64,000 bases of DNA, taken from positions 862,714 through 926,713 of the forward strand of contig NZ_CP009961.1 in assembly GCF_000993805.1 (NCBI RefSeq). The letters run 5' to 3'. The notes under the pieces are model-generated. The model was not told where the DNA came from and ran no database searches. It saw only the letters and a program-made list of their open reading frames with translations. Below are positions 539 to 15,595 of the stretch, piece by piece (position 1 is the stretch's first letter; every line of letters begins with the position of its first letter). The translations under genes and the position numbers were made by a program. This stretch comes from Thermofilum uzonense (GTDB taxonomy: Archaea; Thermoproteota; Thermoprotei; Thermofilales; Thermofilaceae).

Positions 539-1756
539 TCACCTATCACCCTCCGGCGGGAAGTAGTCGAGACTACCATAAATGGCTGGGAAATCCATAA
601 ACCTGTGACCGGGCATAAGGTAGCGGAAGAGGATCACGTTGCGGAAACTGGGTGTCACTACTCTTAGCCTGTAAGGTTTAGTGCTGCCCGCACCGGTAAC
701 GTGATAGAATATTTCGCCGTGCCCCATTTCGACCCTGCTTACGGCGTCCCCTTCGGGGAGTTTGAGAGAGGCAAAGATTCCGGGAAACTTGACTTGGCCT
801 GTCTGTGCAACCTGCTGTCTTATGGCTGGTGGGAGCAGACGCGTATACTTCTCAGCAAAGATAGGGCCTTGTGGGAGCTTCTTAATTACTTGTCTTATAA
901 GGCTCATGCTCTGCCTTATCTCCTCTACCCTGACCTGCATCCTGGCAAGGCAATCGCCGTCTTCACGCATAGGAATTTCAAACTCAAGGTCAGGGTAAGC
1001 TGCGTATCCCTCGGCAAGACGTGCATCGTACTTTACACCGCTTGCGCGGAGGTTTGGACCTACTATGCCAAGCCTGCTAGCCTCGCTCTTCTTTAAGACC
1101 CCTACCCCCTCGTACCTGGATCTGACCTGAGGGTTATCGAGGAAAATCTCCATGTAGTCTTTTAGTCTTCTCTCCATGTACCTTATAGCCTTCTCAGCCC
1201 TCTCGGGAAACGCCTGAGGCATGTCGCGCCTTACCCCTCCTGGAACGCTGTACGTATGGGTTAGTCGAGCGCCCGTGAGATCTTCCGCGAGCTGTATCCA
1301 CACCTCACGGTCGCCGAAGGCCCACATGAACATCGTTGAATGATTTAGCATTATGCCGGCGATTCCTAAGCCGTAGAGGTGGCTTGAGATCCTGTTAATC
1401 TCGGACAGGAGTACACGCAAGTATTGGGCCCTTGGTGGCGCCTCTACGTCGAGAAGTTTTTCCAATGCGAGAACTAGGCCTAATGTGACGTTGTGGCTGT
1501 CTATTATTGTCATTCTCTCTAGAAGAGGTATAGCTTTTATGACCTCTCTACCTTCAGCCAGTTTTTCCATTGTTCTGTGTACGTAGCCTATGTCCGGATC
1601 CACACTTACGATTATATCTCCTTCGAGGCGGACTATGAAGCGCATGTGCCCTGAGGAGGGATGCTGAGGACCTATGAAGAGCTCATAGATGGACTCGTCT
1701 CCCTCCTTGGCGATGAGCCTACTGTAAACAACGCCGTTTTCACTCGAGGTCGACAT
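539..1756 (-). CDS. nuoD: Complex I subunit D (NuoD, 49 kDa type)
   Basis: Peripheral-arm subunit that lines the quinone-binding cavity together with NuoB. The protein has about 405 residues and shows GPQHPSSGHMRF near the start, YVHRTMEKLAEGR, and the PPRAQYLRVLLSEINRISSHL block. The positions that hold nickel-binding cysteines in the related hydrogenases carry none: IDSHN replaces the CGIC motif, and the C-terminus ends in SLDYFPPEGDR. It is therefore a complex I subunit and not a hydrogenase. I chose ATG at 1756 because GAGGAGGG lies just upstream and the family's conserved start follows; a longer open frame to 1855 runs inside nuoC. It overlaps the end of nuoC by 17 bases. Confidence 0.95.
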   Translation of the reverse strand: MSTSSENGVVYSRLIAKEGDESIYELFIGPQHPSSGHMRFIVRLEGDIIVSVDPDIGYVHRTMEKLAEGREVIKAIPLLERMTIIDSHNVTLGLVLALEKLLDVEAPPRAQYLRVLLSEINRISSHLYGLGIAGIMLNHSTMFMWAFGDREVWIQLAEDLTGARLTHTYSVPGGVRRDMPQAFPERAEKAIRYMERRLKDYMEIFLDNPQVRSRYEGVGVLKKSEASRLGIVGPNLRASGVKYDARLAEGYAAYPDLEFEIPMREDGDCLARMQVRVEEIRQSMSLIRQVIKKLPQGPIFAEKYTRLLPPAIRQQVAQTGQVKFPGIFASLKLPEGDAVSRVEMGHGEIFYHVTGAGSTKPYRLRVVTPSFRNVILFRYLMPGHRFMDFPAIYGSLDYFPPEGDR

Positions 1757-2219
1757 AGATACCCTCCTCTTGCACCTTATAATCCTTGCGGAGCGGGGGT
1801 ATTTCGGACCACCACGGGGGTAGTAGCAGGTGTCTGAGATCAGGGTTTCCCTCAAATACTACCCCTAGCATCTCCCAGGTCTCACGCTCCAGTAGTATCG
1901 CGTTGGGCCAAACATCTATAAGGCTCTCTAGTCTAGGATTATCACGTGGGACTCTTACACGTATTTCTAAGAGCAACGATCTTAGATCATCATTATAGCT
2001 TTCAGCGTGATAGACTACTTCGATCGTGTTGTTCTGCGGCCAGTCTATACCCTCGATGGAGACCAAGTGGTCAAATCCAAGACTGAGGGCTTCTTCGGCT
2101 ACCTTCCGGAGACTCTCAGGGAGGGCTATGACTCTTACCCTCCTGTCGAGGACAGAGACCTGTACCCCCAGGCGGGTGAAGGTTTCCTCTAAGACCTTAA
2201 CCTTCTCTCCTCCACTCAC
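1740..2219 (-). CDS. nuoC: Complex I subunit C (NuoC, 30 kDa type)
   Basis: Peripheral-arm scaffold subunit of complex I, 159 residues. The family signature is clear: ERETWEMLGVVFEGNPDLR followed by LLPPWW and PPLRKDYKV. The start is GTG at 2219, with AGGAAGG a few bases upstream inside the end of nuoB. It overlaps nuoB by 23 bases and nuoD by 17 bases, so the three genes are probably translationally coupled. Here C and D are separate proteins, whereas in the neighbouring hydrogenase operon they are fused. No cofactor-binding residues are expected or seen. Confidence 0.94.
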   Translation of the reverse strand: MSGGEKVKVLEETFTRLGVQVSVLDRRVRVIALPESLRKVAEEALSLGFDHLVSIEGIDWPQNNTIEVVYHAESYNDDLRSLLLEIRVRVPRDNPRLESLIDVWPNAILLERETWEMLGVVFEGNPDLRHLLLPPWWSEIPPLRKDYKVQEEGIYVDLE

Positions 2220-2715
2220 CCTTCCTCACCTTTTCCTGTAACATGATCACCGCCCGGGCAACTGCCTCTGGCCTAGGCGGGCAGCCAGGTATATAGAGCT
2301 CAACTGGGAGGATGTCTTTTGGCCTTACAATATTGTAGCTGTTGTAGAATAGGCCTCCATCTATAGCGCAGGCTCCCATGGCTATCACGAACTTGGGTGA
2401 GGGCATCTGGTCATAGACTATCTTGGCGGCCTCACCCATCTTCTTTGTAAGCGTCCCCTCTACAACAAGTAGATTTGTCTGCCTGGGAGAGTTAAACGGT
2501 AGAAAACCAAAACGCTCCGCGTCAAACCTAGGGGCAGAGGCTGCTGCGAATTCTGCTCCACAGCACGAGGTCGTAAAGTGCACGGGCCAGAGGCTGAAGG
2601 AAATAGCCCAGTCCCGCAGAGAACGGATGGGGGTCTTCTCGACAAGCCATTGAGCTGCACGGCGAGCTGTATGGTCAAGGTTCCCGATTAATAGCATGCT
2701 GAAGGGACAGGACAT
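2197..2715 (-). CDS. nuoB: Complex I subunit B (NuoB, 20 kDa type, [4Fe-4S] N2)
   Basis: Carries the terminal iron-sulfur cluster that passes electrons to quinone. The 172-residue protein shows the adjacent cysteine pair in HFTTSCCGAEF, a third cysteine in MGACAIDGG and the fourth in PGCPPRPEA, the full NuoB set. It starts at ATG 2715, ten bases after the nuoA stop, with AGGTG upstream; a second ATG at 2697 is possible but less well placed. The adjacent cysteine pair separates it from the hydrogenase small subunit at 10148, which has CNGC instead. Neighbours are nuoA and nuoC of the same operon. Confidence 0.95.
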   Translation of the reverse strand: MSCPFSMLLIGNLDHTARRAAQWLVEKTPIRSLRDWAISFSLWPVHFTTSCCGAEFAAASAPRFDAERFGFLPFNSPRQTNLLVVEGTLTKKMGEAAKIVYDQMPSPKFVIAMGACAIDGGLFYNSYNIVRPKDILPVELYIPGCPPRPEAVARAVIMLQEKVRKGEWRREG

Positions 2716-2724
2716 GAATTACAC

Positions 2725-3066
2725 CTAGATTCGCCATAAACTTATCTCATCCGCCAGCTTGAGCCCCCACCAAACAACCGGGATGACTGCCAGTAGCATG
2801 GCCCCTACTATTACCAATCCTTGTTGAAGATTAGAGAATGGGAGAATATAGAGGAGAATTATTAGGGGTTCTATACCAAGATAGAGAATTAGATACCCGT
2901 AGTACTGGAAGGGGATACGTTTCTTAGCCTCACCCTTTGGAGGATTACCTGCCTCGTAGCGTAACCTTTTAAAGGGTCTCGCAGGACCTCGCTCGAGGAG
3001 AAGCGCTAAGAGTATAACGAGAAGTCCCGCTAATATCCCCAGGATGACGACTAGGAGCAGTGTCAA
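2725..3066 (-). CDS. nuoA: Complex I subunit A (NuoA)
   Basis: Small membrane subunit of complex I next to NuoH and the quinone channel. It has 113 residues and three predicted membrane helices (about 2-25, 55-77 and 84-106). The conserved loop between helices 1 and 2 reads YEAGNPPKGEAKKRIPFQYYGY, where the usual Cys is replaced by Ala. The only plausible start is TTG at 3066, since no ATG precedes the first helix. It is the first gene of the complex I operon, 123 bases downstream of the hydrogenase operon's last gene, with a TATA-like element at 3111-3120. Confidence 0.88.
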   Translation of the reverse strand: MTLLLVVILGILAGLLVILLALLLERGPARPFKRLRYEAGNPPKGEAKKRIPFQYYGYLILYLGIEPLIILLYILPFSNLQQGLVIVGAMLLAVIPVVWWGLKLADEISLWRI

Positions 3067-3189: not shown

Positions 3190-4482
3190 CTAAAGACCAA
3201 AATAGGATACTATCGTCGGACAGAAAATGAATGCGACAAGGCTGAAGAGCACTAATAGGAAACTTGTAAGCAATGCAACTCTGTGTCTTAGATGCACAGC
3301 ATCGTTGGAGCCGCTGGCAAGGGTGTAGAAGATGCGGAAGTAATAGGCGAAAGATATTATGATTGAAAACATGAAGCCAAGCCCTACCAGAACATTGAAT
3401 TGGAAGAGCCCGACACCCATGTAGAGCTCACTCCAAAATGTTAATAGTGGAGGAGCTCCTGTGAGTCCCAGAGAGGCTAGAATAACCGTGAACTTTAGCA
3501 CGTTGTTCTTCGAGGCCACTCCATAGAGCTTTGAGAGATGGCGTGTTCCATATTCGGCTAGCAAAACACCGGAAACTATGAAGAGGGCTGATTTTAGGAG
3601 ACCGTGCGCGAATACATGTAGGAATGCGTAGACCGTCGCCAGGTTGTTGCCGGTAGCCCATGCCAGCAAGATATAGTTTACATTTGCAAAGCTGCTGAAT
3701 GCCAGTAGACGCTTGAGGTCATCCTGCTTGTATGCGGAAAGATTTCCTATGAACGCACCTATTAGTGCGAGAGGTAGTACTATGTAGCGTATTAATTCTT
3801 CGCCGAATACCAGTCTATAGACTAGGATTGCTGCTGACTCGATAACCACACCTGACAATACTGCGCTTGCAGTGCTTGGCGCAGCCATGTGGGCGTCCGG
3901 GAGCCAAAAGTGTAACGGGAATAAGGCGGCCTCGGTCCCGAAACCTAGAAGGAGGAAAATCTTGGCTAATATGCTAGATGAGGGAACAGAGTGTATTGAA
4001 GTTGACCCAGTTTCTATGAATACAAGAATTATCCCTATTAGCGCTAGAGCCGTTCCAGCTCCGCATAGCATTAGGTATTTAAATGCGGCTTCAGCGCCCT
4101 CCTTATTCCTATGGTATGCTGTCAGGGAGACAACCGCAGTGCTCAGGATTTCCCACTCAAGGAAGACTTTTACTAAATCTTTCGTGTGAGTTATCAGTAT
4201 AGAGGAAACGCATAGGACAAGAATTAACAGGTTATGAGTCGATACGTCCTCTTCGATGAGAGAATACCCAGTCACAACTGCCGCGATTCCTATAAGCGAG
4301 GAAGTAAGACCTATGAGTCCTACTGGACTTCTCTCGGAGAGTGATAGGTACAGTACGATTAAGAGTAGGATTGCCGCCATTGTCGTGGAAACCGGTTTTC
4401 TAAATCTCTGTGGTAGTAGCCTGACCACCAGGTATAGTAGAACGCCACATAGGCCGATATTGATCAATGCTTCCTCGAGCAA
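3190..4482 (-). CDS. NuoN/NuoM-type antiporter-like subunit of group 4 hydrogenase
   Basis: Proton- or sodium-translocating membrane subunit of the MrpD/NuoM/NuoN family, 430 residues with about 13-14 predicted helices. Family marks are the helix-5 glutamate in FLEWEILSTAVVSL, the FPLHFWLPDAHMAAPSTASA block at about residue 190, the lysine-bearing YKQDDLKRLLAFSS, and HVFAHGLLKSALF. The start is TTG at 4482, with GGGGGTGATG upstream overlapping the end of the L subunit; the stop of that gene is only one base away. It is the last gene of the hydrogenase operon. Whether it corresponds to N or M cannot be fixed by eye. Confidence 0.88.
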   Translation of the reverse strand: MLEEALINIGLCGVLLYLVVRLLPQRFRKPVSTTMAAILLLIVLYLSLSERSPVGLIGLTSSLIGIAAVVTGYSLIEEDVSTHNLLILVLCVSSILITHTKDLVKVFLEWEILSTAVVSLTAYHRNKEGAEAAFKYLMLCGAGTALALIGIILVFIETGSTSIHSVPSSSILAKIFLLLGFGTEAALFPLHFWLPDAHMAAPSTASAVLSGVVIESAAILVYRLVFGEELIRYIVLPLALIGAFIGNLSAYKQDDLKRLLAFSSFANVNYILLAWATGNNLATVYAFLHVFAHGLLKSALFIVSGVLLAEYGTRHLSKLYGVASKNNVLKFTVILASLGLTGAPPLLTFWSELYMGVGLFQFNVLVGLGFMFSIIISFAYYFRIFYTLASGSNDAVHLRHRVALLTSFLLVLFSLVAFIFCPTIVSYFGL

Positions 4483-4483
4483 T

Positions 4484-6154
4484 CTACATCACCCCCATAA
4501 CTATAAGTAGGATAACGAGCAAGAGCCCGATTAGCCACAGCGTGTTGATGGAGGGTATACCTGTTTGTAGCTTGCGGGAAAGGTCCGATGCTAAATTGAT
4601 TGCTTTAGATGCTATAATGCTGTAGGCTTCGTCTATGTAAAAGCCCTTATCGGCAATCTGTGCGAGAGGCTTATAGACTGACCTGACATACACGCACGTG
4701 TAAGAGTCCTTCCCCCAGAGGTAATAAGCTATTAGAATACCTAATCCCAATCCTAACAGGGCGCTGGGGTCTAGCTCGGCAAACTCAGCCGCTACACCTA
4801 GCATTCGGGAGGCTTGAGTTAAAATCAATATACCTGTGAAGGTGAGAATAGATAGGACTATGATGGGAACTATCATAGCCGGGTTGTGCTCCTGCATCTT
4901 CTTACGGGGAGAGCCTTTGAAGAGCCTAAAGTAAAGCCTGAATATATATAGAGAGGAGAGAAGAGAGATCGTGAACGCTAGCAGATAACCGAGTCCCTCC
5001 TTAAAGTTATGCTCTATCGCCATAAGTATGAGGTCTTTTGTAAAGTATCCTGGGAGAGGGGGAACGCCTGCCAAACTAAGCGAGCCTATAAGGAAGCCTA
5101 TCCCTGTAACTCTGAGCCCCGACGACCATAGTCCTCCCAGCTCGTCTAGACTACGGGTTTTAGCTTCGTGTATTATGAGTCCTGCACAAAGGAATAATAG
5201 GGCTTTGAAGAGTGAGTGCGATAACAAGTGTAGTTGAGCCGCGCCCCATGCTCCAAGACCTAAGCCTAAGAACATGAGTGCTAGGTGATTTATAGTGCTG
5301 TATGCTAAGACCCTTTTTATGTCAGAGGCTCCGAGGGCTGCTAGCGCTGAGAGGAAAATTGTGATGATTGCGAGGCAAACTACTATCTCTAGAGCCTTAC
5401 TGCTGAGGGTTATGAGAGGGTAGAAGCGTGACAACAAGTATACTCCAGCCTTTACCATTGTCGCCGCATGTATAAGGGCGCTAACAGATGTGGGTCCTTC
5501 CATCGCGTCGGGTAGCCAGACGAAAAGGGGGAACTGTGCAGATTTTCCTATAGCGGCTAGAAGCAGCAAAATCGCAAGGGGTGTTATAAGGTCTCCTAGT
5601 TCGGTTGCAGAGTCTAGGATTAAAGGTATATTTGATGTCCCAATGCGTGATAAAAGTAGGGCAATTGCAGCTATGAATCCTATATCGCCTATTCTTGTAA
5701 CAGTAAAAGCTTTCAGTCCAGCTTTCCGCGCCTCAGGCTTATCCCACCAGAAGGATATTAGCAGAGCACTGCAAACGCCGACAAGCTCCCAGGAAACGTA
5801 TAGGATTAGCAGGTTTGTTGTTAGAACGAGTAGGCTCATAGAAGCTATGAAGAATAACATCAGTGAGTAGTAGCGTCGGTATGATGGGTCGTGGTTCATG
5901 TATCCCACGCTGTAAATAACGATTAGAGAGCCTAGAACATTCACAACTCCCAGCATAAGCTTAGACAAAGCGTCGCTGTAGAGTGTAACCCCTATCTGGG
6001 TTGTTTTCTCGGGAATCAGGATATATGCTATTGACAGAAGAGCGGCAGTTAGAGAAGCTATGACGCTTAAGCCCTCCACAAGCCTTCTTTGTTTAAGAAC
6101 TGTGATTGTAGCGCTTGCGATAAACAATTCTAGTAGTAAAAGCTCAGGAATCAT
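4484..6154 (-). CDS. NuoL-type antiporter-like subunit of group 4 hydrogenase
   Basis: Large ion-translocating membrane subunit, 556 residues. The proton-antiporter N domain is visible in YMNHDPSYRRYYSLMLFF, then LYVSWELVGVCSALLISFWW with the conserved glutamate, then TRIGDIGFIAA. The central block has FPLFVWLPDAMEGPTSVSALIHAATMV and KRVLAYSTINHLALM. A C-terminal helix bundle is present, but no obvious long lateral helix can be judged by eye. It starts at ATG 6154 behind GAGGTGG, and its stop is two bases from the start of the next antiporter-like gene. Together with that gene it gives the complex two pumping-type subunits. Confidence 0.9.
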   Translation of the reverse strand: MIPELLLLELFIASATITVLKQRRLVEGLSVIASLTAALLSIAYILIPEKTTQIGVTLYSDALSKLMLGVVNVLGSLIVIYSVGYMNHDPSYRRYYSLMLFFIASMSLLVLTTNLLILYVSWELVGVCSALLISFWWDKPEARKAGLKAFTVTRIGDIGFIAAIALLLSRIGTSNIPLILDSATELGDLITPLAILLLLAAIGKSAQFPLFVWLPDAMEGPTSVSALIHAATMVKAGVYLLSRFYPLITLSSKALEIVVCLAIITIFLSALAALGASDIKRVLAYSTINHLALMFLGLGLGAWGAAQLHLLSHSLFKALLFLCAGLIIHEAKTRSLDELGGLWSSGLRVTGIGFLIGSLSLAGVPPLPGYFTKDLILMAIEHNFKEGLGYLLAFTISLLSSLYIFRLYFRLFKGSPRKKMQEHNPAMIVPIIVLSILTFTGILILTQASRMLGVAAEFAELDPSALLGLGLGILIAYYLWGKDSYTCVYVRSVYKPLAQIADKGFYIDEAYSIIASKAINLASDLSRKLQTGIPSINTLWLIGLLLVILLIVMGVM

Positions 6155-6155
6155 A

Positions 6156-6452
6156 CTACCACCTCAAATCAGATACCTCTTGGGGGTTAATCCTCCTGAA
6201 ACGTTCCCATACTAGAAGAGCTATCGCGATCCCAAGCGCTTCTGTTGTAGCTGTAGCTGAAGCTATGAGAAGGAACATGTCATCGGCGCTGGCTCCACCC
6301 GTTCTAAACGCGAGAGAGAGGAGGAGTAGGCTCGCTAGGGTCATCGCCTGTAAGCCCATGATCACCTTCACCATGTTTCTGGTGGCGGCTATGGAGGCTA
6401 AACCAGCTATGAGAAGCGTTAGAGCCGAACACACTACCACTAAATCCATCAT
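6156..6452 (-). CDS. NuoK-type membrane subunit of group 4 hydrogenase
   Basis: Small three-helix membrane protein of 98 residues, homologous to NuoK/MrpC. It has the family pattern of a membrane glutamate near TATTEALGIAIALLVWERFRR and RNMVKVIMGLQAM in the second helix. In complex I this subunit contributes to the chain of charged residues crossing the membrane. There are two in-frame ATG codons, at 6452 and 6449; GAGGGG lies just upstream. It overlaps the stop of the J subunit by 4 bases and is followed one base pair later by the L subunit stop-start junction. Confidence 0.88.
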   Translation of the reverse strand: MMDLVVVCSALTLLIAGLASIAATRNMVKVIMGLQAMTLASLLLLSLAFRTGGASADDMFLLIASATATTEALGIAIALLVWERFRRINPQEVSDLRW

Positions 6453-6883
6453 CCCCCCTCACCTTTCACAATGTGTAAACCACCAATGAGAACAGTTACG
6501 AGTAGGATTGTTAGAAGAGAATAATCATTTATGTCAGCAATTCTTGTAACCTGTGATACTTCGAACTTTATCTTTCCTGTCCCGACAAGTATGTATATTG
6601 ATAGGAGGGTTAGGAGCATCAGGGAAACGGCCAAGGCATATGTAACGTCTACTCTTACTTCCTCCCTGGTTACAAGCATCATCCAAGCGATCATCAGAGC
6701 TATTAAACCTCCTGCGAACAGCGTGGCGACAAGGATTGCCGGCGTCCAACCAGCGGTCTCAGACAGTGCTATTGATATCATTATAGTACCGGTAGCCATC
6801 GCGATTAGACTTGCAATTATTCGGCGTGAATAGAGACCCCAGACTATCAAGACAACACCAATAAGAGACAAATATTCAATCAT
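6449..6883 (-). CDS. NuoJ-type membrane subunit of group 4 hydrogenase
   Basis: Five-helix membrane protein of 144 residues in the NuoJ position. Similarity is mainly in hydrophobic layout and order (H-J-K-L), with ETAGWTPAILVATLFAGGLIAL as the most NuoJ-like part. I placed the start at ATG 6883, where ATGA overlaps the stop of the H subunit and AGGTGG lies six bases upstream; a GTG three codons earlier is also open. Simpler group 4 hydrogenases of the Ech type lack J and K subunits, so its presence makes this complex unusually complex I-like. Confidence 0.8.
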   Translation of the reverse strand: MIEYLSLIGVVLIVWGLYSRRIIASLIAMATGTIMISIALSETAGWTPAILVATLFAGGLIALMIAWMMLVTREEVRVDVTYALAVSLMLLTLLSIYILVGTGKIKFEVSQVTRIADINDYSLLTILLVTVLIGGLHIVKGEGG

Positions 6884-7848
6884 ACAAGCCACCTGAAAAG
6901 GAAAGCTATAAGAAGTTGAATGAAAACAAGGGGGTAAAGTATACCCCAGAAAACTCTCGCAAGACCACTCACCTTAAACCTAGCCATTGATGCGCTTATG
7001 AAAGTTAAGAGGAAACTGAGAGCTAGGGCTTTGAATCCAAACCAAAGGAAACCTGCTAGGGGCCCAATTTTTTCGTATCCAGGACCCAGAGGTCCTCCAA
7101 GGTAAAAGCTGGTCAACAGCGATATTCCCCAAGTCATGCTCAGATCGTTGAAGAGCCTGAGATAAGCTAGGCTTCTCCCGGAGTATTCTGTCAACCAGCC
7201 CGCTACAACCTCCTGCTTCGCGTGGGGGAGATCAAAGGGTCTCTTCTCTAGTTTAGCGAGTAAGGCAAATAATGATGTTATAAAGCCAATCGGTTGATAA
7301 AGAACCAAGGGGCCATGCTGGGCCTGGTATTCTATTAGGTCTTTGAAGCTTAGAGATGATGCTTGCAACGCTACGGACGCTAGGCTCAAAGCAAAGATGC
7401 TCTCATACATAGTGTACTGCAAGAGAAGCCTTCCTACACCTATTGCTGTGTAGGGTGTGAGTGCCGCATAACCCGCTAGTGCCACCGTTAGGGCTGTTAG
7501 GGCTAACAATAAGAATACGAGGAGTACATCTCCTTGAAAAGATAAGGGCATCTGGGTCGTAGCTACCGGGATATAACACATGGCGAAAACAGGTATTGAA
7601 ATGGCTAATACGGGTGCTACTCGGTAAAGCAATATGTCACAATTCCGGGGTACGATCTCTTCCTTTACAAGCAGCTTTATAAAATCAACCAGTGGTTGCA
7701 AAAGCCCTTTAGGTCCTGTGTAGAGGGGTCCTACTCGCCCTTGAATCTTCGCTGTTATCTTTCTCTCAATGTATTCAAACCAGAAAGCCATAGCCACGCT
7801 GAACAATAGACCTGGAAAGATTAGAGATTGGAATAATATGTCAATCAT
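6880..7848 (-). CDS. NuoH-type membrane anchor of group 4 hydrogenase
   Basis: Membrane subunit that links the hydrogenase core to the ion-pumping arm, 322 residues with about eight helices. It shows WFEYIERKITAKIQGRVGP near residue 25, matching the charged loop of NuoH/HycD/EchB, and KLEKRPFDLPHAKQEVVAG at about residue 190, the conserved cytoplasmic loop with Glu residues. It starts at ATG 7848 with GGTGAG upstream, eight bases after the stop of the ferredoxin subunit. It is a paralogue of the truncated nuoH at the left edge; the two differ in loop sequence, so this is not a recent duplication. Confidence 0.92.
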   Translation of the reverse strand: MIDILFQSLIFPGLLFSVAMAFWFEYIERKITAKIQGRVGPLYTGPKGLLQPLVDFIKLLVKEEIVPRNCDILLYRVAPVLAISIPVFAMCYIPVATTQMPLSFQGDVLLVFLLLALTALTVALAGYAALTPYTAIGVGRLLLQYTMYESIFALSLASVALQASSLSFKDLIEYQAQHGPLVLYQPIGFITSLFALLAKLEKRPFDLPHAKQEVVAGWLTEYSGRSLAYLRLFNDLSMTWGISLLTSFYLGGPLGPGYEKIGPLAGFLWFGFKALALSFLLTFISASMARFKVSGLARVFWGILYPLVFIQLLIAFLFRWLV

Positions 7849-7855
7849 GTCATGC

Positions 7856-8551
7856 TCACCGCAACCTCCTTAGTAGTTCGATTCCTTCGACCATAAGGGC
7901 CGCTAAGGTGATTAGTACTAGGAGAAGAACATATAGAGCTGGACGCAGTAGTATGAGGAATACAGCGATCTCGGTGATCAGGAAAAACAGTACAAATGAA
8001 AACAATCCTGGAATATAATATCTTTCAAGATGTGTGGTTTGAGGTGTCCCCCCAGTAAACGGATCAAAAGCCTTGTCGGTGTGTTCTCCCTTAGGAGATA
8101 AAAGGCCAGAGATTAAATACACACTCAAGCTTACAAGGAAAATAAATGCAAACGCTAGGATGGCCCCCACTCTTGGATCTGTTGAAAGTGGCAGGAGAGC
8201 TACCTCAAAAGCATATTCTATGGTAAAACTTTTTTCCATTCGAATGGCACGCGCGGGGCACACATCAGAACACAAGCCGCAGTAAATGCACCTTAAATAG
8301 TCAAATCTTGGAGCCTTCTTGTCTATTTCCCTTCCCCCAACAATTTGCTTTCCTACAGTTATCATGGTTATAGCTCCAGGTGGACAAGACCTACCGCATA
8401 ACCCGCATCCAAGACACTTCTCTATATTTAAGACGGGGCGCCCTCGAGACATGCTGTTTTGAGCAGCTTCATCAATAGCTAGAGTTCTTGGTCTTCCGAG
8501 AAGGTTCGCAAACGACATACACAGCAACTTTACAAAACCACTTTTCACCAT
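7856..8551 (-). CDS. Ferredoxin-type subunit I fused to a NuoA-like membrane domain
   Basis: The N-terminal third is a NuoI-like 2[4Fe-4S] subunit: cysteines 46, 49, 52, 56 and 88, 91, 94, 98 form two CxxCxxCxxxCP motifs that would carry electrons to the small subunit. From about residue 128 the protein changes character. It has a membrane helix (130-150), a loop with DKAFDPFTGG, and two further helices (180-200, 203-223). This order and the FDPF loop match NuoA. No separate NuoA gene exists in this operon, so I infer an I-A fusion. The start is ATG 8551 behind GAGAGGTG, overlapping the large-subunit gene by 7 bases. The Fe-S part is certain; the NuoA assignment is my reading. Confidence 0.85.
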   Translation of the reverse strand: MVKSGFVKLLCMSFANLLGRPRTLAIDEAAQNSMSRGRPVLNIEKCLGCGLCGRSCPPGAITMITVGKQIVGGREIDKKAPRFDYLRCIYCGLCSDVCPARAIRMEKSFTIEYAFEVALLPLSTDPRVGAILAFAFIFLVSLSVYLISGLLSPKGEHTDKAFDPFTGGTPQTTHLERYYIPGLFSFVLFFLITEIAVFLILLRPALYVLLLVLITLAALMVEGIELLRRLR

Positions 8552-10173
8552 GAACTCGCACCTCTCTTCTTAGTGAAATCTTCTAGAGACAATACCTTGA
8601 CCGTCCCGTCCGATTGGTTATAGACTTGCACGCGATCCATGCAGCTGAAACAGGGGTCGATACTGGTCACTATAAGTGGGAGATCTGAGAGAGCGGCTCC
8701 TTCAAGGAGGATGGCGGCAAGTTGTATGTTTGGGAGAGTCGGTGTCCTAATTTTGACACGATAGGGGCTATGAGTATTATTTGATATCACGTAATAAAAA
8801 AGCTCGCCTCTTGGGGCCTCTGTCCGTGCATAGGATTCCCCTGCAGGAACAGTACCCATGAAATACTTGGAGGGTACAGGGTTTCCGCTTGGAGTTTTTT
8901 CTGTTATTTGCGAAATAATGCGTGCTGATTCAATAAGTTCTTTAAGACGACATAATACCAGACTATAGACATCGCCTCTATCTGAGGTTATAGTCTCAAA
9001 TTCCAGGTCTCCATAGGCTCCATATGGTTCTATTTTTCGAATATCGTAGGGGTCGCCCGCGGCTCGCCTAACGGGACCAACGGTCACATATTTGCGCGCC
9101 TGGTCTAGTGTGTATACGCCAATGTTTCGTGTTCTCTCTACGAAGAGATCGCTAGACATAGCGGTTTCGATAACATTTTCTATTTGCTTTGAAAACTCGC
9201 CGACTTTAAGGGACATCTTCTTCAGTTTTGCGTCATCTATGTCTTTACGAACCCCTCCTATGGTTACAAACGACTTGTGTACTCTGTTACCGGTAGCCTC
9301 TTCTAGCAAATCTAGAATAGTCTCACGTAGGCTCCACACCCACATAAACATGGTCTCAAACCCCATCCAGTAGCCTACAAGCCCAAGCCACAACGAGTGT
9401 GAGTGTATCCTTTCCAACTCGGCTATCAGTGTTCGAAGATAGAGAGCCCGCTTAGGTATATCTATGCTGAGTAGTTTTTCGACCGCCTCTACAAAGGTCC
9501 ATGCATGATGTGTGCTGCAAATCCCACAAACCCTTTCTAAAAGGAATATGTCGCGGAGATACGTTCTTCCCTCAGCTGCTTTCTCTACCCCCCTGTGTAC
9601 GAAGCCTATCCTCAGGTAAGCTTTCCGTATAGTCTCACCCTCTACAATTAAGCTGAAACGCTCCGGCTCCTTTAACGCAGGGTGATATGGACCCAGCGGG
9701 AGAACCACGTTCTCAGGGGATAAAGGTGCCAAGGGTGTAAATTGTACTGGGCCGCAACTTTGTGTTTTCGCGATTTTTTCTTTGATTGATTCACTTTTCA
9801 CCTCCTTAAGGAGAGGGGGTGGAGCGTCCTGTGGGTAACAGTCTGGTAGTATGAATCGTTGCTGGCTGGTATTATGCAACCCTTCTACTTTAAGGCCGAA
9901 GAGTTCTTCAGACTCTCTCTCATAATATGCTGCTCCAGGGACTATTGATGTGAGAGTTGGAACAACGGGTGCTTGTTTTGATACTTCTACTGATAAATGA
10001 ACGATTGACCCATTAAGGCTTGAGAAATGATATATCACCTCTATTTTATCTCCTCTATCGACGGCTGTAATAGCTACTAGGTGGGTGAAGCCGGAGCTTG
10101 TTAGTTTTTCCACCTCCTTTAGTAAATCGTCTAGGCTAACCCTATTCTTACTCTGGACTCGTGTTCCCCCCAT
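8545..10173 (-). CDS. Group 4 [NiFe] hydrogenase large subunit, NuoC-NuoD fusion
   Basis: Catalytic subunit for H2 production or oxidation, 542 residues. Residues 1 to about 125 are NuoC-like (YYERESEELFGLKVEG), and the rest is NuoD/HycE-like. Two nickel-binding cysteine pairs are present: RVCGICSTHHAW (Cys 216 and 219) and DPCFSCMDR (Cys 508 and 511). These define a [NiFe] active site and exclude a plain complex I NuoD. A 28-residue tail follows Arg514, as in HycE, where a maturation protease cleaves after the equivalent Arg. It overlaps the small-subunit gene by 26 bases. No hyp maturation genes lie in the window. Confidence 0.95.
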   Translation of the reverse strand: MGGTRVQSKNRVSLDDLLKEVEKLTSSGFTHLVAITAVDRGDKIEVIYHFSSLNGSIVHLSVEVSKQAPVVPTLTSIVPGAAYYERESEELFGLKVEGLHNTSQQRFILPDCYPQDAPPPLLKEVKSESIKEKIAKTQSCGPVQFTPLAPLSPENVVLPLGPYHPALKEPERFSLIVEGETIRKAYLRIGFVHRGVEKAAEGRTYLRDIFLLERVCGICSTHHAWTFVEAVEKLLSIDIPKRALYLRTLIAELERIHSHSLWLGLVGYWMGFETMFMWVWSLRETILDLLEEATGNRVHKSFVTIGGVRKDIDDAKLKKMSLKVGEFSKQIENVIETAMSSDLFVERTRNIGVYTLDQARKYVTVGPVRRAAGDPYDIRKIEPYGAYGDLEFETITSDRGDVYSLVLCRLKELIESARIISQITEKTPSGNPVPSKYFMGTVPAGESYARTEAPRGELFYYVISNNTHSPYRVKIRTPTLPNIQLAAILLEGAALSDLPLIVTSIDPCFSCMDRVQVYNQSDGTVKVLSLEDFTKKRGASSW

Positions 10174-10588
10174 GATTAGACACCCCCACGACCTTAGATA
10201 GCGCTTTTAAAAGCGCGCGTGGACTGGCAGGACACCCCGGGATCTTGACGTCCACGGGGACTACCTCACCTGCTCCTCCCAGAACATTATAACAGTCGGC
10301 AAAAACACCTCCAGAACAAGCACATGTACCTAGGGCTACAACATATTTGGGATAAGGAATTTGATCATATATAGAGCGTAAAGCCGGCACGACTTGAGAT
10401 GTAACGGGGCCAGTAACAACAAGTACGTCAGCGTGGCGGGGGCTAGGAACTAGTTGTACCCCAAGACGCTCGGGATCGTATCTAGAGGTGAGAAATGCCA
10501 CAAGCTCTATATCGCATCCATTGCACCCACCTGAGTTGAAATGATAAAGCCAGAGGCTTTTCCTCTGCAGGAGCGATAGCTTCACCAT
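10148..10588 (-). CDS. Group 4 [NiFe] hydrogenase small subunit (NuoB-like)
   Basis: Iron-sulfur subunit adjacent to the nickel site, 146 residues. The signature HFNSGGCNGCDIELVAF is characteristic of group 4 hydrogenase small subunits (EchC/HycG/HyfI), with further cysteines in GTCACSGGVF and PGCPASPRAL. Complex I NuoB has an adjacent Cys pair instead, as in the gene at 2197. ATG at 10588 is preferred; an upstream TTG at 10612 is open but would add eight residues inside a very AT-rich promoter. It is the first gene of the eight-gene hydrogenase operon. Confidence 0.94.
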   Translation of the reverse strand: MVKLSLLQRKSLWLYHFNSGGCNGCDIELVAFLTSRYDPERLGVQLVPSPRHADVLVVTGPVTSQVVPALRSIYDQIPYPKYVVALGTCACSGGVFADCYNVLGGAGEVVPVDVKIPGCPASPRALLKALSKVVGVSNHGGNTSPE

Positions 10589-10872
10589 TATATACCCTAT
10601 TATACTTATCAAAATTTTTACATATAAAGAGAATTTAATAACTCCAGTTAATATTTTTTAAAGTATAGGAGAATAATTATTGTCATTGGACAAAATAAAT
10701 AATAATTTTTTAAAATAATAGGAGAGATACTCTTATTAACTATTAGATCTAATTCTCTCATAAAAATAAATACTCAGATCGTACTAGTAGATCCTTATAG
10801 GCTGATTCTAAAAGACAAATAGTCTACAAAAAACTATATAATTGACTTTCACGAGAATATCTAGGGTAGAAC
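10589..10872. promoter_or_regulatory. AT-rich divergent promoter region, hydrogenase operon and AbrB-PhoU gene
   Basis: About 284 bases without a gene, strongly AT-rich. On the plus strand a TATA-like actatataat lies at 10833-10842, some 26 bases before a likely transcript start for the AbrB-PhoU gene. On the minus strand there are several TATA-like stretches just before the small-subunit ATG. A perfect 12-base palindrome, attagatctaat, sits at 10742-10753 and could be an operator shared by both directions. I see no RNA gene here. Confidence 0.5.
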
Positions 10873-11889
10873 ATGTCGGCTCAAAGAGTTGTCAGGCGTG
10901 TACAAGTAACTGGGGGATCCACGTTCATAATCTCCATACCCAAGGAGTGGGCTTCAAGCGTTGGCATAGACAGAGGCAGTATGGTTACACTCTCGCTGGA
11001 GCACGATGGGAGCATACGGGTCATACCCAGTGGGAAGAAGCTACAGTCTACGAATGTAGCCGAGATATTTGTGAAAAAGGAGATCTCTGAAGGAGCTGTT
11101 TTAAGGGAAATAATGTCAAAGTACCTTGTAGGCTATAAAACGATTCATGTGAGATTCCAGCAAGACAATCCCATCTTAAGGGGAAAGCTCAAGGAGATAG
11201 CGGTAAAGAAGCTTATAGGGGCCGAGGTCTTGCACGAAGACTCACGAGAAATGACAATACAGGTTCTCGTTAATGTGGGGGACTTTCCCCTCATAAACAT
11301 CATTCAAAAAATGGGGGATACTGATAAGAGCATGTTACTAGATGCTATCGAGCTCTTCAGGAAGGGGCTTAAGGATAAAACTTATATTGGAGAGCTTGCA
11401 ATGCGTGATGACATAGTGGATAAACTCTACCTTTATGGGCTCCGTCAACTAAACACCGCGTTGAAGGGCTACGTGAGTCTGGAGGAGATCGGTCTCTCAA
11501 GAAGCGAGGAGATCCTGTCTTACGGTATGGTTCTGAAGAATATGGAGAGGATAGGCGATCACGCCGCAACTATAGCGACCCATCTGCAAGAGATTCCCAT
11601 TGACTTTAAGGGTGTAAAGGACATATTTGCCTTTGGTGAAGCTGTAACCGAATTTTTCATGCAGAGTGTAAAGACTTTCCTTGACCGAAACAAGAAACAG
11701 GCAAACGATCTCCTAGACGCTAAGATTGAAGAGATAAAGGAAATGGAGAGGAAGCTCTCAAACATTTATACAGTTGAGGACGCTAGGGTTCTCACGACGA
11801 TAAGAACTATTGTTGGAAGCTATAGACGGGTAGCCGACTACTCCACGGATATACTTGAAGCAACCATAGACCTTCACGACATTAGATAG
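10873..11889 (+). CDS. AbrB-domain/PhoU-domain regulator
   Basis: Predicted cytoplasmic regulator of 338 residues. Residues 1-50 form a SpoVT/AbrB-type swapped-hairpin DNA-binding domain (VQVTGGSTFIISIPKEW, then VGIDRGSMVTLSL). Residues from about 110 to the end are helical, with two PhoU-type three-helix repeats, for example SRSEEILSYGMVLKNMERIGD and EAVTEFFMQSVKTF. PhoU proteins sense or relay phosphate status to Pst transporters. Archaeal AbrB-PhoU proteins are usually found near pst genes; here pstSCAB is 12.5 kb away and a second such regulator lies at 13512. It starts at ATG 10873 with a short leader. The actual target is unknown. Confidence 0.88.
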   Translation: MSAQRVVRRVQVTGGSTFIISIPKEWASSVGIDRGSMVTLSLEHDGSIRVIPSGKKLQSTNVAEIFVKKEISEGAVLREIMSKYLVGYKTIHVRFQQDNPILRGKLKEIAVKKLIGAEVLHEDSREMTIQVLVNVGDFPLINIIQKMGDTDKSMLLDAIELFRKGLKDKTYIGELAMRDDIVDKLYLYGLRQLNTALKGYVSLEEIGLSRSEEILSYGMVLKNMERIGDHAATIATHLQEIPIDFKGVKDIFAFGEAVTEFFMQSVKTFLDRNKKQANDLLDAKIEEIKEMERKLSNIYTVEDARVLTTIRTIVGSYRRVADYSTDILEATIDLHDIR

Positions 11890-13511: not shown

Positions 13512-14465
13512 TCATCTTTTTCTCGACGAAAATTCGCTGAAGACCTCTAGCTCCACTCTGGACTCGAGCATGTCAAGTATGAGTGAAATTATGTTTCCTA
13601 AAAGATGATCTATAAGGCTTGAAGACTCGAACTTCTCGAAATACTCTCGGTACGTTTTCGTGATGACAAGTTTTGACTCCTCGTCGCCGGTCTTGAAAGC
13701 CTTTATCCCTGCTTCGAACGCCTCGCGGATTACTCGGATATCCTCCTCTGATAACTCAACTATATGAGCTATCCTTGCTATGTTCACTATAACGTCTCCC
13801 ACTCGTTCAAGAGTCTTGCCGTAGTTGAAGATTGGAAGGAGCAAGGTCTTATTAGGAATGCCCACTTTGGCCAGATACCATGAGTATAATATCGAGAGGT
13901 TGACTTGCCTGCTTAAGAGAAAATAAAACTTGTCCACCTCTTCGTCTCTCTCTAGTATGTCTTTCAGGTACGACATGTCCCCCGTGCGCACGAACTCTTC
14001 GAGGTCCTTTATACTGTTAAGGATGAGTACTTCCATTCTGTTCAAAACCTTAGGAACCTCTGTTGATGCTGTGTTCGCCAGCATCTGGAGAAGGATGTAG
14101 TCGGAGCCCTCCTCGAAGACTTCTAACCCTACTAGGCGTTTTAGAGTTTTCCTGATCGTTTCGCGTAAGCTTAGGGGAACTCTTCCCGAGGTGGATACAA
14201 CTTTAATCGATGAATAGCCTGCCTGATACAAAGCTATTATCATTCTCTCGACGGTGTCCTCGTCCCCCTGTGCGGCTTCCAGAACTTTGGTCTCCTCTAT
14301 GAACTCCTCTCGACGCATTATCGGCGAAATAAGCAAGTAGTTGTCGTACTCTTCCAGAAATAGAGTATCTCCCTCGCGTAGACTGTTTTTCTCAACCCAT
14401 TCCCGTGGAAGTGTGACTGCGAGGCTTGTTTTTCCCAGCTTTAAAAGTTTTCTTGTCGTAGACAT
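13512..14465 (-). CDS. AbrB-domain/PhoU-domain regulator (second copy)
   Basis: A 317-residue paralogue of the protein at 10873. The N-terminal 50 residues are AbrB-like (RKLLKLGKTSLAVTLPREWV, then LREGDTLFLEEYDNYLLI). The remainder is helical with PhoU-like repeats, for example NYGKTLERVGDVIVNIARIAH. It probably binds DNA or a partner in response to phosphate status. ATG 14465 lies 24 bases downstream of the centre of ATTTATATAAAC (14483-14494, minus strand), so a leaderless transcript is likely. It is divergent from guaB, with which it shares an 80-base promoter region. The two AbrB-PhoU copies are diverged. Confidence 0.85.
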   Translation of the reverse strand: MSTTRKLLKLGKTSLAVTLPREWVEKNSLREGDTLFLEEYDNYLLISPIMRREEFIEETKVLEAAQGDEDTVERMIIALYQAGYSSIKVVSTSGRVPLSLRETIRKTLKRLVGLEVFEEGSDYILLQMLANTASTEVPKVLNRMEVLILNSIKDLEEFVRTGDMSYLKDILERDEEVDKFYFLLSRQVNLSILYSWYLAKVGIPNKTLLLPIFNYGKTLERVGDVIVNIARIAHIVELSEEDIRVIREAFEAGIKAFKTGDEESKLVITKTYREYFEKFESSSLIDHLLGNIISLILDMLESRVELEVFSEFSSRKR

Positions 14466-14482
14466 AATACAGGTATATACTT

Positions 14483-14523
14483 GTTTATATAAATTAGTTT
14501 TGTATTAAAACAAGTCTTATAGG
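14483..14523. promoter_or_regulatory. Divergent TATA boxes for AbrB-PhoU gene and guaB
   Basis: Two TATA-like elements face apart. ATTTATATAAAC on the minus strand (14483-14494) is centred 24 bases before the ATG at 14465. GTCTTATAGG on the plus strand (14514-14523) is centred 27 bases before the ATG at 14546. Both spacings match leaderless transcripts. Confidence 0.55.
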
Positions 14524-14545
14524 CTAAGCCAAGCGTTTCACGAAT

Positions 14546-15595
14546 ATGGGGAGATTTGTAGAGAAACTAAAAACAGCTGAAACAGCTCTAAGCTTCGATG
14601 ACATTCTCATACTGCCCAGATACTCTGATGTAAGTATAAGTGAAATAGATGTCTCGACAAAGCTGGCCCCTAAACTGGACCTCTCTCTACCTCTGTTAAG
14701 CTCCCCAATGGACACTGTTACAGGCCGCGAGATGGCGCTGACACTGGGAGAGATCGGTGGTCTGGGAGTCCTGCCGAGAAATCTCCCAATTGACGAGGCA
14801 GTAGGGATAGTTCGAGAAGCATCAGTTAAAAAAATTCCCGTGGCTGCTGCGGTTGGACCATTTGACGATGAAAGGGTAGGCAGGCTTTTGGATGCCGGTG
14901 TCTCTATGATAGTTATAGATACAGCTCATGGCCATAGCAAGAATGTCCTGGAGGCTACGCGAAGGTACTCATCGATGGGCGCTGTCGTGATGGCTGGGAA
15001 CATAGTCACAGGTGAAGCCGCGGAGGACTTAATTTCGGCTGGGGCTGTCTCGCTTAGAGTTGGGGTAGGGCCCGGCCACGCATGTACAACTAGAGAGGTG
15101 GCAGGGGTCGGATGCCCACAACTTACGGCCATCGCAAGCGTAGCCGATGTCGCTAGAGCTTACGGTGTTAGCGTTGTAGCTGACGGGGGGATTGAGAAGC
15201 CTGCTGACGCAGTTAAGGCCCTAGCGGCTGGAGCAGATGCTCTAATGCTAGGCTATCTTTTCGCTGGAACCGATGAGGCTTCGGGGGCTCTCGTCGCCAA
15301 AGAGGGTCGTTGCTTTAAAGTGTACAGGGGTATGGGTAGTAGGGGAGCTTTAGCTAGTGGCTCAGCGAGATATGGAGAGTTTAAACGCGTACCTGAGGGT
15401 GTCGAGGGACTTGTTGAGTGTCGTGGAAGTGTAAGAAATGTTGTTGAGTGGATAATAGGCGGGATTAAGCAAGGGATGGGTTATGTTGGAGCTAGGAACA
15501 TACGTGAGCTACAGGAGAAGAGTATCTTCGTGAAACTAACGCCCTCAGGTGTACGGGAAAGTGGTCCTAGAGGACTATATGAGGTGAGGTATTGA
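14546..15595 (+). CDS. guaB: IMP dehydrogenase, catalytic domain only
   Basis: Oxidises IMP to XMP with NAD+, the first committed step to GMP. The 349-residue barrel shows LSFDDILILPRYSDVS, the substrate loop GVGPGHACTTREVAGVG with the catalytic Cys, DGGIEKPADAVKALAAGAD, and the flap YRGMGSRGALA followed by ARYGEF and VPEGVEG. Most IMPDHs carry two CBS domains between strands and reach about 480 residues; here they are absent. The YRGMGS and RYGEF features favour IMPDH over GMP reductase. It heads an operon with the amidohydrolase and guaA, whose start codons overlap the preceding stops. Starting at ATG 14546 it appears leaderless. Confidence 0.92.
   Translation: MGRFVEKLKTAETALSFDDILILPRYSDVSISEIDVSTKLAPKLDLSLPLLSSPMDTVTGREMALTLGEIGGLGVLPRNLPIDEAVGIVREASVKKIPVAAAVGPFDDERVGRLLDAGVSMIVIDTAHGHSKNVLEATRRYSSMGAVVMAGNIVTGEAAEDLISAGAVSLRVGVGPGHACTTREVAGVGCPQLTAIASVADVARAYGVSVVADGGIEKPADAVKALAAGADALMLGYLFAGTDEASGALVAKEGRCFKVYRGMGSRGALASGSARYGEFKRVPEGVEGLVECRGSVRNVVEWIIGGIKQGMGYVGARNIRELQEKSIFVKLTPSGVRESGPRGLYEVRY

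Follow-up and report, generated by a model that had tools for sequence, protein, structure and literature searches.

Fusion of a ferredoxin-type subunit I with a NuoA-like domain in a group-4 [NiFe] hydrogenase operon of Thermofilum uzonense

In complex I, the iron–sulfur subunit NuoI and the membrane subunit NuoA (ND3/Nqo7) are separate proteins, whereas one gene of Thermofilum uzonense, located in the stretch of 64,000 nucleotides analyzed here (the window), had been predicted to join the two in a single chain. This locus raises the questions of whether the segment that follows the two 4Fe-4S motifs of the encoded protein (hereafter I-A) is a genuine counterpart of subunit A, whether the operon that harbors it has any other subunit A, and how such a membrane element can be attached to a peripheral iron–sulfur subunit.

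The hydrogenase operon and the ferredoxin half of I-A

The I-A gene belongs to a tight minus-strand operon of eight genes arranged in the order B, CD, I-A, H, J, K, L, N, the last of which ends at 3190 (table 1). All four [NiFe]-ligand cysteines of CD (RVCGIC and DPCFSC) were invariant in ten homologues, and NuoH-like and antiporter-like membrane subunits are present in the same operon. Since CD carries both invariant ligand motifs, the operon is, as judged from its sequences, that of an energy-converting group-4 [NiFe] hydrogenase; group 4g of HydDB is a loose, uncharacterized class (PMC5037454). Accordingly, the "quinone-channel-type" membrane domain named in the original prediction is to be understood as the ancestry of the complex and not as a quinone site, as the [NiFe]-ligand motifs mark a group-4 hydrogenase. 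Unlike complex I, this is a hydrogenase operon with [NiFe] motifs and without the NADH module. It resembles the Mbh of P. furiosus, likewise a group-4 [NiFe] hydrogenase, in which MbhN is the ferredoxin-type subunit and MbhI the counterpart of ND3/Nqo7 (PMC11228991; PMC7684303; PMC10396290). In Mbh, however, MbhI is a subunit of its own, whereas here A is fused to I and CD forms one polypeptide, and the visible T. uzonense operon is devoid of MrpE/F/G-type genes.

Table 1. Coordinates in the window of the fused gene, its parts, and the neighboring genes
Feature	Position	Strand	Evidence or remark
Fused subunit I-A, 231 aa	7856..8551	minus	ORF; full length and in frame in five other genomes, frameshifted in a sixth
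2[4Fe-4S] NuoI/MbhN-like ferredoxin domain, residues 1–106	8234..8551	minus	Pfam Fer4, NCBIfam, and PDB subunit I matches
Linker, residues 107–127	8171..8233	minus	Uncharged apolar run in every fused homologue; no internal ribosome-binding site
NuoA/ND3/MbhI-like three-helix domain, residues 128–231	7859..8170	minus	hhalign with controls; PDB profile search; stand-alone homologues 5' of B
PFTGG loop motif, residues 164–168	8048..8062	minus	Between helices 1 and 2; putative counterpart of the Y-E-C-G loop in NuoA
E194, invariant acidic residue, helix 2	7970..7972	minus	Region of the NuoA D-x-E motif
Hydrogenase subunit B (NuoB/MbhJ-like)	10148..10612	minus	PF01058; first operon gene in all fused loci
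Hydrogenase CD fusion	8545..10173	minus	Pfam; both [NiFe] motifs (ERVCGICSTHH; DPCFSC), invariant in 10 homologues
Subunit H (NuoH/MbhM-like)	6880..7848	minus	PF00146, E 1e-75
Subunit J-like membrane protein	6449..6892	minus	Position and conservation in all fused loci; weak MrpB match
Subunit K-like (NuoK/FpoK)	6156..6452	minus	NCBIfam
Subunit L-like antiporter subunit	4484..6154	minus	Exceeds the cut-off of NuoL TIGR01974
Subunit N/M-like antiporter subunit, last hydrogenase gene	3190..4482	minus	NCBIfam; conserved position
Separate NuoA (A2), first gene of the neighboring Nuo operon	2725..3066	minus	PF00507, E 1e-7; NCBIfam "NADH dehydrogenase subunit A", E 2e-30

The large subunit is itself a C-D fusion (8545–10173), so that two fusions are found among the peripheral and bridging subunits of the operon. 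Fusions reported among the core subunits of complex I comprise CD and BCD (PMC12361115). No earlier description of an I-A fusion was found in the literature searched, which consisted of open-access full texts only, and publications dealing with T. uzonense, T. adornatum, and NZ13 make no mention of the hydrogenase that bears it.

The N-terminal half was matched by Fer4 families over residues 38–104, with E down to 4e-14 (Pfam), and exhibits two CxxCxxCxxxCP motifs, C46/49/52/56 and C88/91/94/98, in which all eight cysteines are present. The best NCBIfam families for this half include NuoI, FpoI, HyfH, and the FHL iron–sulfur subunit, all of them scoring below their cut-offs, and against the NuoI subfamily TIGR01971 the protein reached 63.7 bits for a cut-off of 113. 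The ferredoxin half is, in terms of these family profiles, NuoI-like and outside NuoI proper (TIGR01971). Its PDB matches, obtained both by sequence and by predicted structure, included subunit I of complex I and HycF of the E. coli formate hydrogenlyase. Foldseek and VIA-align comparisons made with the I-A model produced matches confined to the ferredoxin half and were uninformative on the remainder of the protein.

Identity of the membrane half

Following the iron–sulfur motifs, hydrophobic helices were found at residues 126–151, 180–202, and 204–230 in the AlphaFold2 model, at moderate confidence, an arrangement that corresponds to the two 4Fe-4S motifs and three helices originally described. 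The loop announced as FDPF-containing does read FDPFTGG, but FDPF is peculiar to this sequence and the conserved motif is PF(T/S/A)GG, which, together with the Glu in helix 2 (E194), is conserved among fused and stand-alone domains. As in NuoA (ND3/Nqo7), there are three helices and a long loop between helices 1 and 2; where this loop has a YECG-type tyrosine/cysteine motif in NuoA, the A half has PF(T/S/A)GG, a putative counterpart that departs from the exact Y-E-C-G.

For the profile comparison, six fused and five stand-alone A domains served as the hhalign query and 20 NuoA sequences as the target. This yielded a score of 45.5 (probability 93%, single-pair E 2.6e-7), whereas the same profile scored at most 15.6 against 34 segments taken from the operon's other membrane subunits (K, J, H, L, and N), 12.7 against reversed NuoA, and no more than 14.8 against 40 column-shuffled NuoA alignments. 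The fusion of subunit I to a NuoA-like domain is thereby upheld, and the possibility that the helices match a different membrane family found no support among the other membrane subunits. Additionally, a profile search of the whole PDB with the A domain returned, at E ≤ 10, one chain only, which was ND3 of complex I (E 0.0037), with the PFTGG of the A half aligned to the PFECG of ND3.

Single-sequence scans against Pfam (PF00507) and NCBIfam gave no NuoA match to the C-terminal half. A bridging sequence is provided by the stand-alone A protein P0011 from the outgroup operon of G005 (L044), which carries TPYACGEDLPP and scored 23.1 bits against the PF00507 gathering cut-off of 23.3, this cut-off being a matter of search practice and not of biological definition. 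On account of the profile comparison, the ND3-only PDB match, the synteny of the stand-alone genes described below, and the P0011 bridge, the A half is to be regarded as a divergent NuoA homologue in subunit-A position, outside the recognition range of PF00507, the link being made by profiles and synteny rather than by direct family matches. AlphaFold2 models of I-A, built from shallow alignments, reached a pLDDT of 55 with alignment A5 and of 73 with alignment A6 (about 50–72 in the A half), and the A6 model is too weak in the A half to confirm fold, topology, or linker path. Both halves are homologous to their counterparts in complex I, NuoI and NuoA, and with considerable confidence we interpret I-A as the end-to-end fusion of an MbhN-like ferredoxin subunit with the MbhI/NuoA-like bridging subunit of a group-4 [NiFe] energy-converting hydrogenase.

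A precedent for an Nqo7-like bridging element joined to another subunit is found in the P. furiosus MBS (MbsH' TMH15–16; PMC7684303), although there the Nqo7-like helices end an antiporter-like subunit, whereas here they are attached to the peripheral iron–sulfur subunit. In two other loci, the antiporter-like L subunits end with KPFVSGEDL (L083, about 14312–14760) and KPFVCGEDL (L087, about 14275–14730), which resemble the helix 1–2 loop of NuoA; these L subunits possibly carry a fused A element comparable to that of MbsH'. A small ORF next to the NuoH gene of L086 (about 11290–11600), with REPFASGH and a WDIIVIF helix, is probably another unannotated stand-alone subunit A.

Single origin of the fusion and replacement of the stand-alone subunit A

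A search for related loci with a CD alignment as the query led to 11 loci; the same search with P0001 alone found none. The full-length I-A architecture was in frame in five other genomes, and a sixth other copy is frameshifted: in the draft assembly of NZ13, the frameshift lies within the A half, just after the PFTGG loop (L034 9400–10149, the same as L077 11626–12216), and may reflect decay or an assembly error. In operons with a short subunit I, a separate A gene encoding 109–123 aa is located directly upstream of B, which is the canonical position of nuoA (G335, G232, G131, G314, G005, and L079). Five of these stand-alone A proteins (G335, G232, G131, G314, and L079) carry a PF/PY-x-G/A-G loop and the Glu in helix 2, and BLAST related the fused A domain to those of G335 and G232 with E about 1e-8. 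The unfused Thermoproteota relatives (G335/L078, G232, G131, G314/L081, and L079) possess the same hydrogenase by CD, at 49–55% identity, and the same A and I domains, and they differ in keeping A and I separate, with the order A-B-CD-H-I against B-CD-IA-H in the fused loci. The A domain thus occupies in these relatives the nuoA gene position known from complex I.

Within the family of the window genome (17 genomes), the fusion was observed in six of the seven genomes of the genus Thermofilum, including that of the window, and no match was obtained in the seventh, which is 81% complete. The ten genomes from other genera of this family comprise one with the separate form, the rest giving no strong match. 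In the family of G220, the fusion occurs in 1 of 40 genomes, namely G220 itself. A tree built from five other subunits (1995 columns) recovered the fused operons as a single clade (99/99) in which G220 was nested within the Thermofilum group. The fusion has a single origin, and because of this one clade and the placement of G220 inside the Thermofilum group, the pattern is consistent with the two genes having fused once and the operon having later passed laterally into another family. A CD-only tree with distant outgroups placed the root inside the fused set, a position that was taken as a long-branch effect because the five-subunit tree unites the fused operons (99/99) and the synteny makes a separate A the ancestral state.

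The original prediction held that a separate nuoA is missing, which is true of the hydrogenase operon and not of the window, as a nuoA is found 4.8 kb further on (2725–3066), in another operon. Being close, on the same strand, and clearly a NuoA, this gene could be the real subunit A of the hydrogenase, in which case the C-terminal half of I-A, lacking a direct Pfam match, would be an unrelated three-helix anchor. This nuoA, however, lies beyond a 123-bp AT-rich gap (with a T-run and a TATA-like sequence) after the last hydrogenase gene, and it is the start of a complete second Nuo operon of the order A-B-C-D-H-I-J-K-M-L-N, directly downstream, of which A-B-C-D are in the window and H-I-J-K-M-L-N past its edge. 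Five other Thermofilum genomes likewise have the Nuo operon behind that of the hydrogenase (observed for its A, B, C, D, H, and I genes), whereas G220, a complete 1.36-Mb genome from another family, has the fused hydrogenase operon with no adjoining Nuo operon and no PF00507 gene anywhere in the genome. Moreover, NuoA/ND3 was singled out by the profile comparison of the A half, and in the unfused relatives it is a homologue of the fused domain itself that stands in the nuoA position, leaving very little probability for an unrelated anchor served by the neighboring NuoA. Because this nuoA opens a separate operon and G220 lacks any PF00507 gene, we conclude that the fused domain replaces the stand-alone A of the hydrogenase and is the only A of its operon. 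The second Nuo operon spans window positions 539–3066 and G000:C1 856000–863250 (L045 10004–17936), and genes of the NADH module (E, F, G) were not observed next to it.

Topology of the fusion and its possible part in coupling

The N-terminus of ND3/Nqo7 is located on the proton-exit side of the membrane in complex I. The same side has been reported for ND3/Nqo7/MbhI in both complex I and Mbh (PMC10396290), and this NuoA topology makes a simple end-to-end I-A fusion harder than was originally assumed. Over 11 sequences, the Lys and Arg residues numbered 53 in the helix 1–2 loop, 22 in the C-terminal tail, 4 in the helix 2–3 loop, and 0 before helix 1, a predicted charge distribution that agrees with the NuoA orientation under the positive-inside rule, with the long helix 1–2 loop inside. 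With the N-terminus of NuoA outside and the ferredoxin half inside, the linker at residues 107–127 would have to pass through the membrane. Each of the six intact fused proteins has in this linker a run of 8–16 uncharged, mostly apolar residues placed after a conserved acidic residue, which appears too short for an ordinary helix but could suffice for a crossing in extended or kinked form. We infer that the linker, of about 20 residues, spans the bilayer and thereby lets helix 1 retain the NuoA orientation. To the fuller picture we give an even chance: the linker would constitute a short, non-standard crossing by which the ferredoxin is covalently threaded to the outer end of helix 1, making A a four-crossing element that tethers electron input to the coupling loop. 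Such a four-crossing, linker-threaded topology, if true, is undescribed for complex I relatives in the literature searched.

The simplest join between an inside domain and helix 1, with no extra crossing, would presumably be an A half inserted the opposite way, with helix 1 running from inside to outside and the loop turned outward, which would reduce the domain to a plain anchor without a coupling role. The positive-inside counts over the 11 sequences, however, correspond to the NuoA orientation, and the invariant loop and Glu are common to fused and stand-alone domains; we therefore deem a reversed insertion improbable. The topological problem would also vanish if the two halves ended up as separate polypeptides, through an internal start near Met105 or through proteolysis, the fusion then existing at the gene level only. 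Met105 is kept in all fused homologues, and an ORF starting from it comprises 127 aa, near the size of the stand-alone A proteins (109–123 aa). This residue is, however, equally conserved in unfused subunit I and so belongs to the ferredoxin fold, and in none of the six genomes is it preceded by a Shine-Dalgarno-like motif, whereas GGTG or GAGG motifs precede most of the other gene starts of the operon. Among all the junction starts in these six genomes, the one such motif is located inside helix 1 of G105. Separate chains seem to us about as doubtful as a reversed insertion, and the synthesis of I-A as a single polypeptide, whose start is overlapped by the stop of CD (8545–8551), is the simplest reading of the sequence.

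For I-A as a single protein, the direction of electron flow, the pumping of ions, and the function of the loop can be proposed by analogy with characterized relatives (Mbh). Reduced ferredoxin would dock at the N-terminal half, and electrons would enter its two 4Fe-4S clusters and reach the [NiFe] site of CD by way of subunit B, with H2 as the product. The A half would anchor the peripheral arm in the membrane arm, and its helix 1–2 loop (PFTGG) would be one of the conserved loops through which the redox event is relayed to the pump subunits H, J, K, L, and N. In complex I and Mbh, this loop is directed toward the peripheral arm; in Mbh, the TM1–2 loop of MbhI contacts the hydrogenase and H-like subunits and takes part in the redox signal relay (PMC11228991; PMC7684303). 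The fusion itself would add a covalent tether and a fixed 1:1 ratio of I to A, and no new activity.

Subunit A has been under-counted, as Pfam and NCBIfam overlook the fused domain together with most of the stand-alone proteins related to it, and surveys would therefore score these hydrogenases as A-less. The I-A fusion connects both sides of the interface at which redox energy passes to the ion pump. It occurs in a simple enzyme of eight genes whose hyperthermophilic host can be cultivated, and it would offer a natural 1:1 tether for testing the movement of the A loop against that of the electron-entry arm in coupling.
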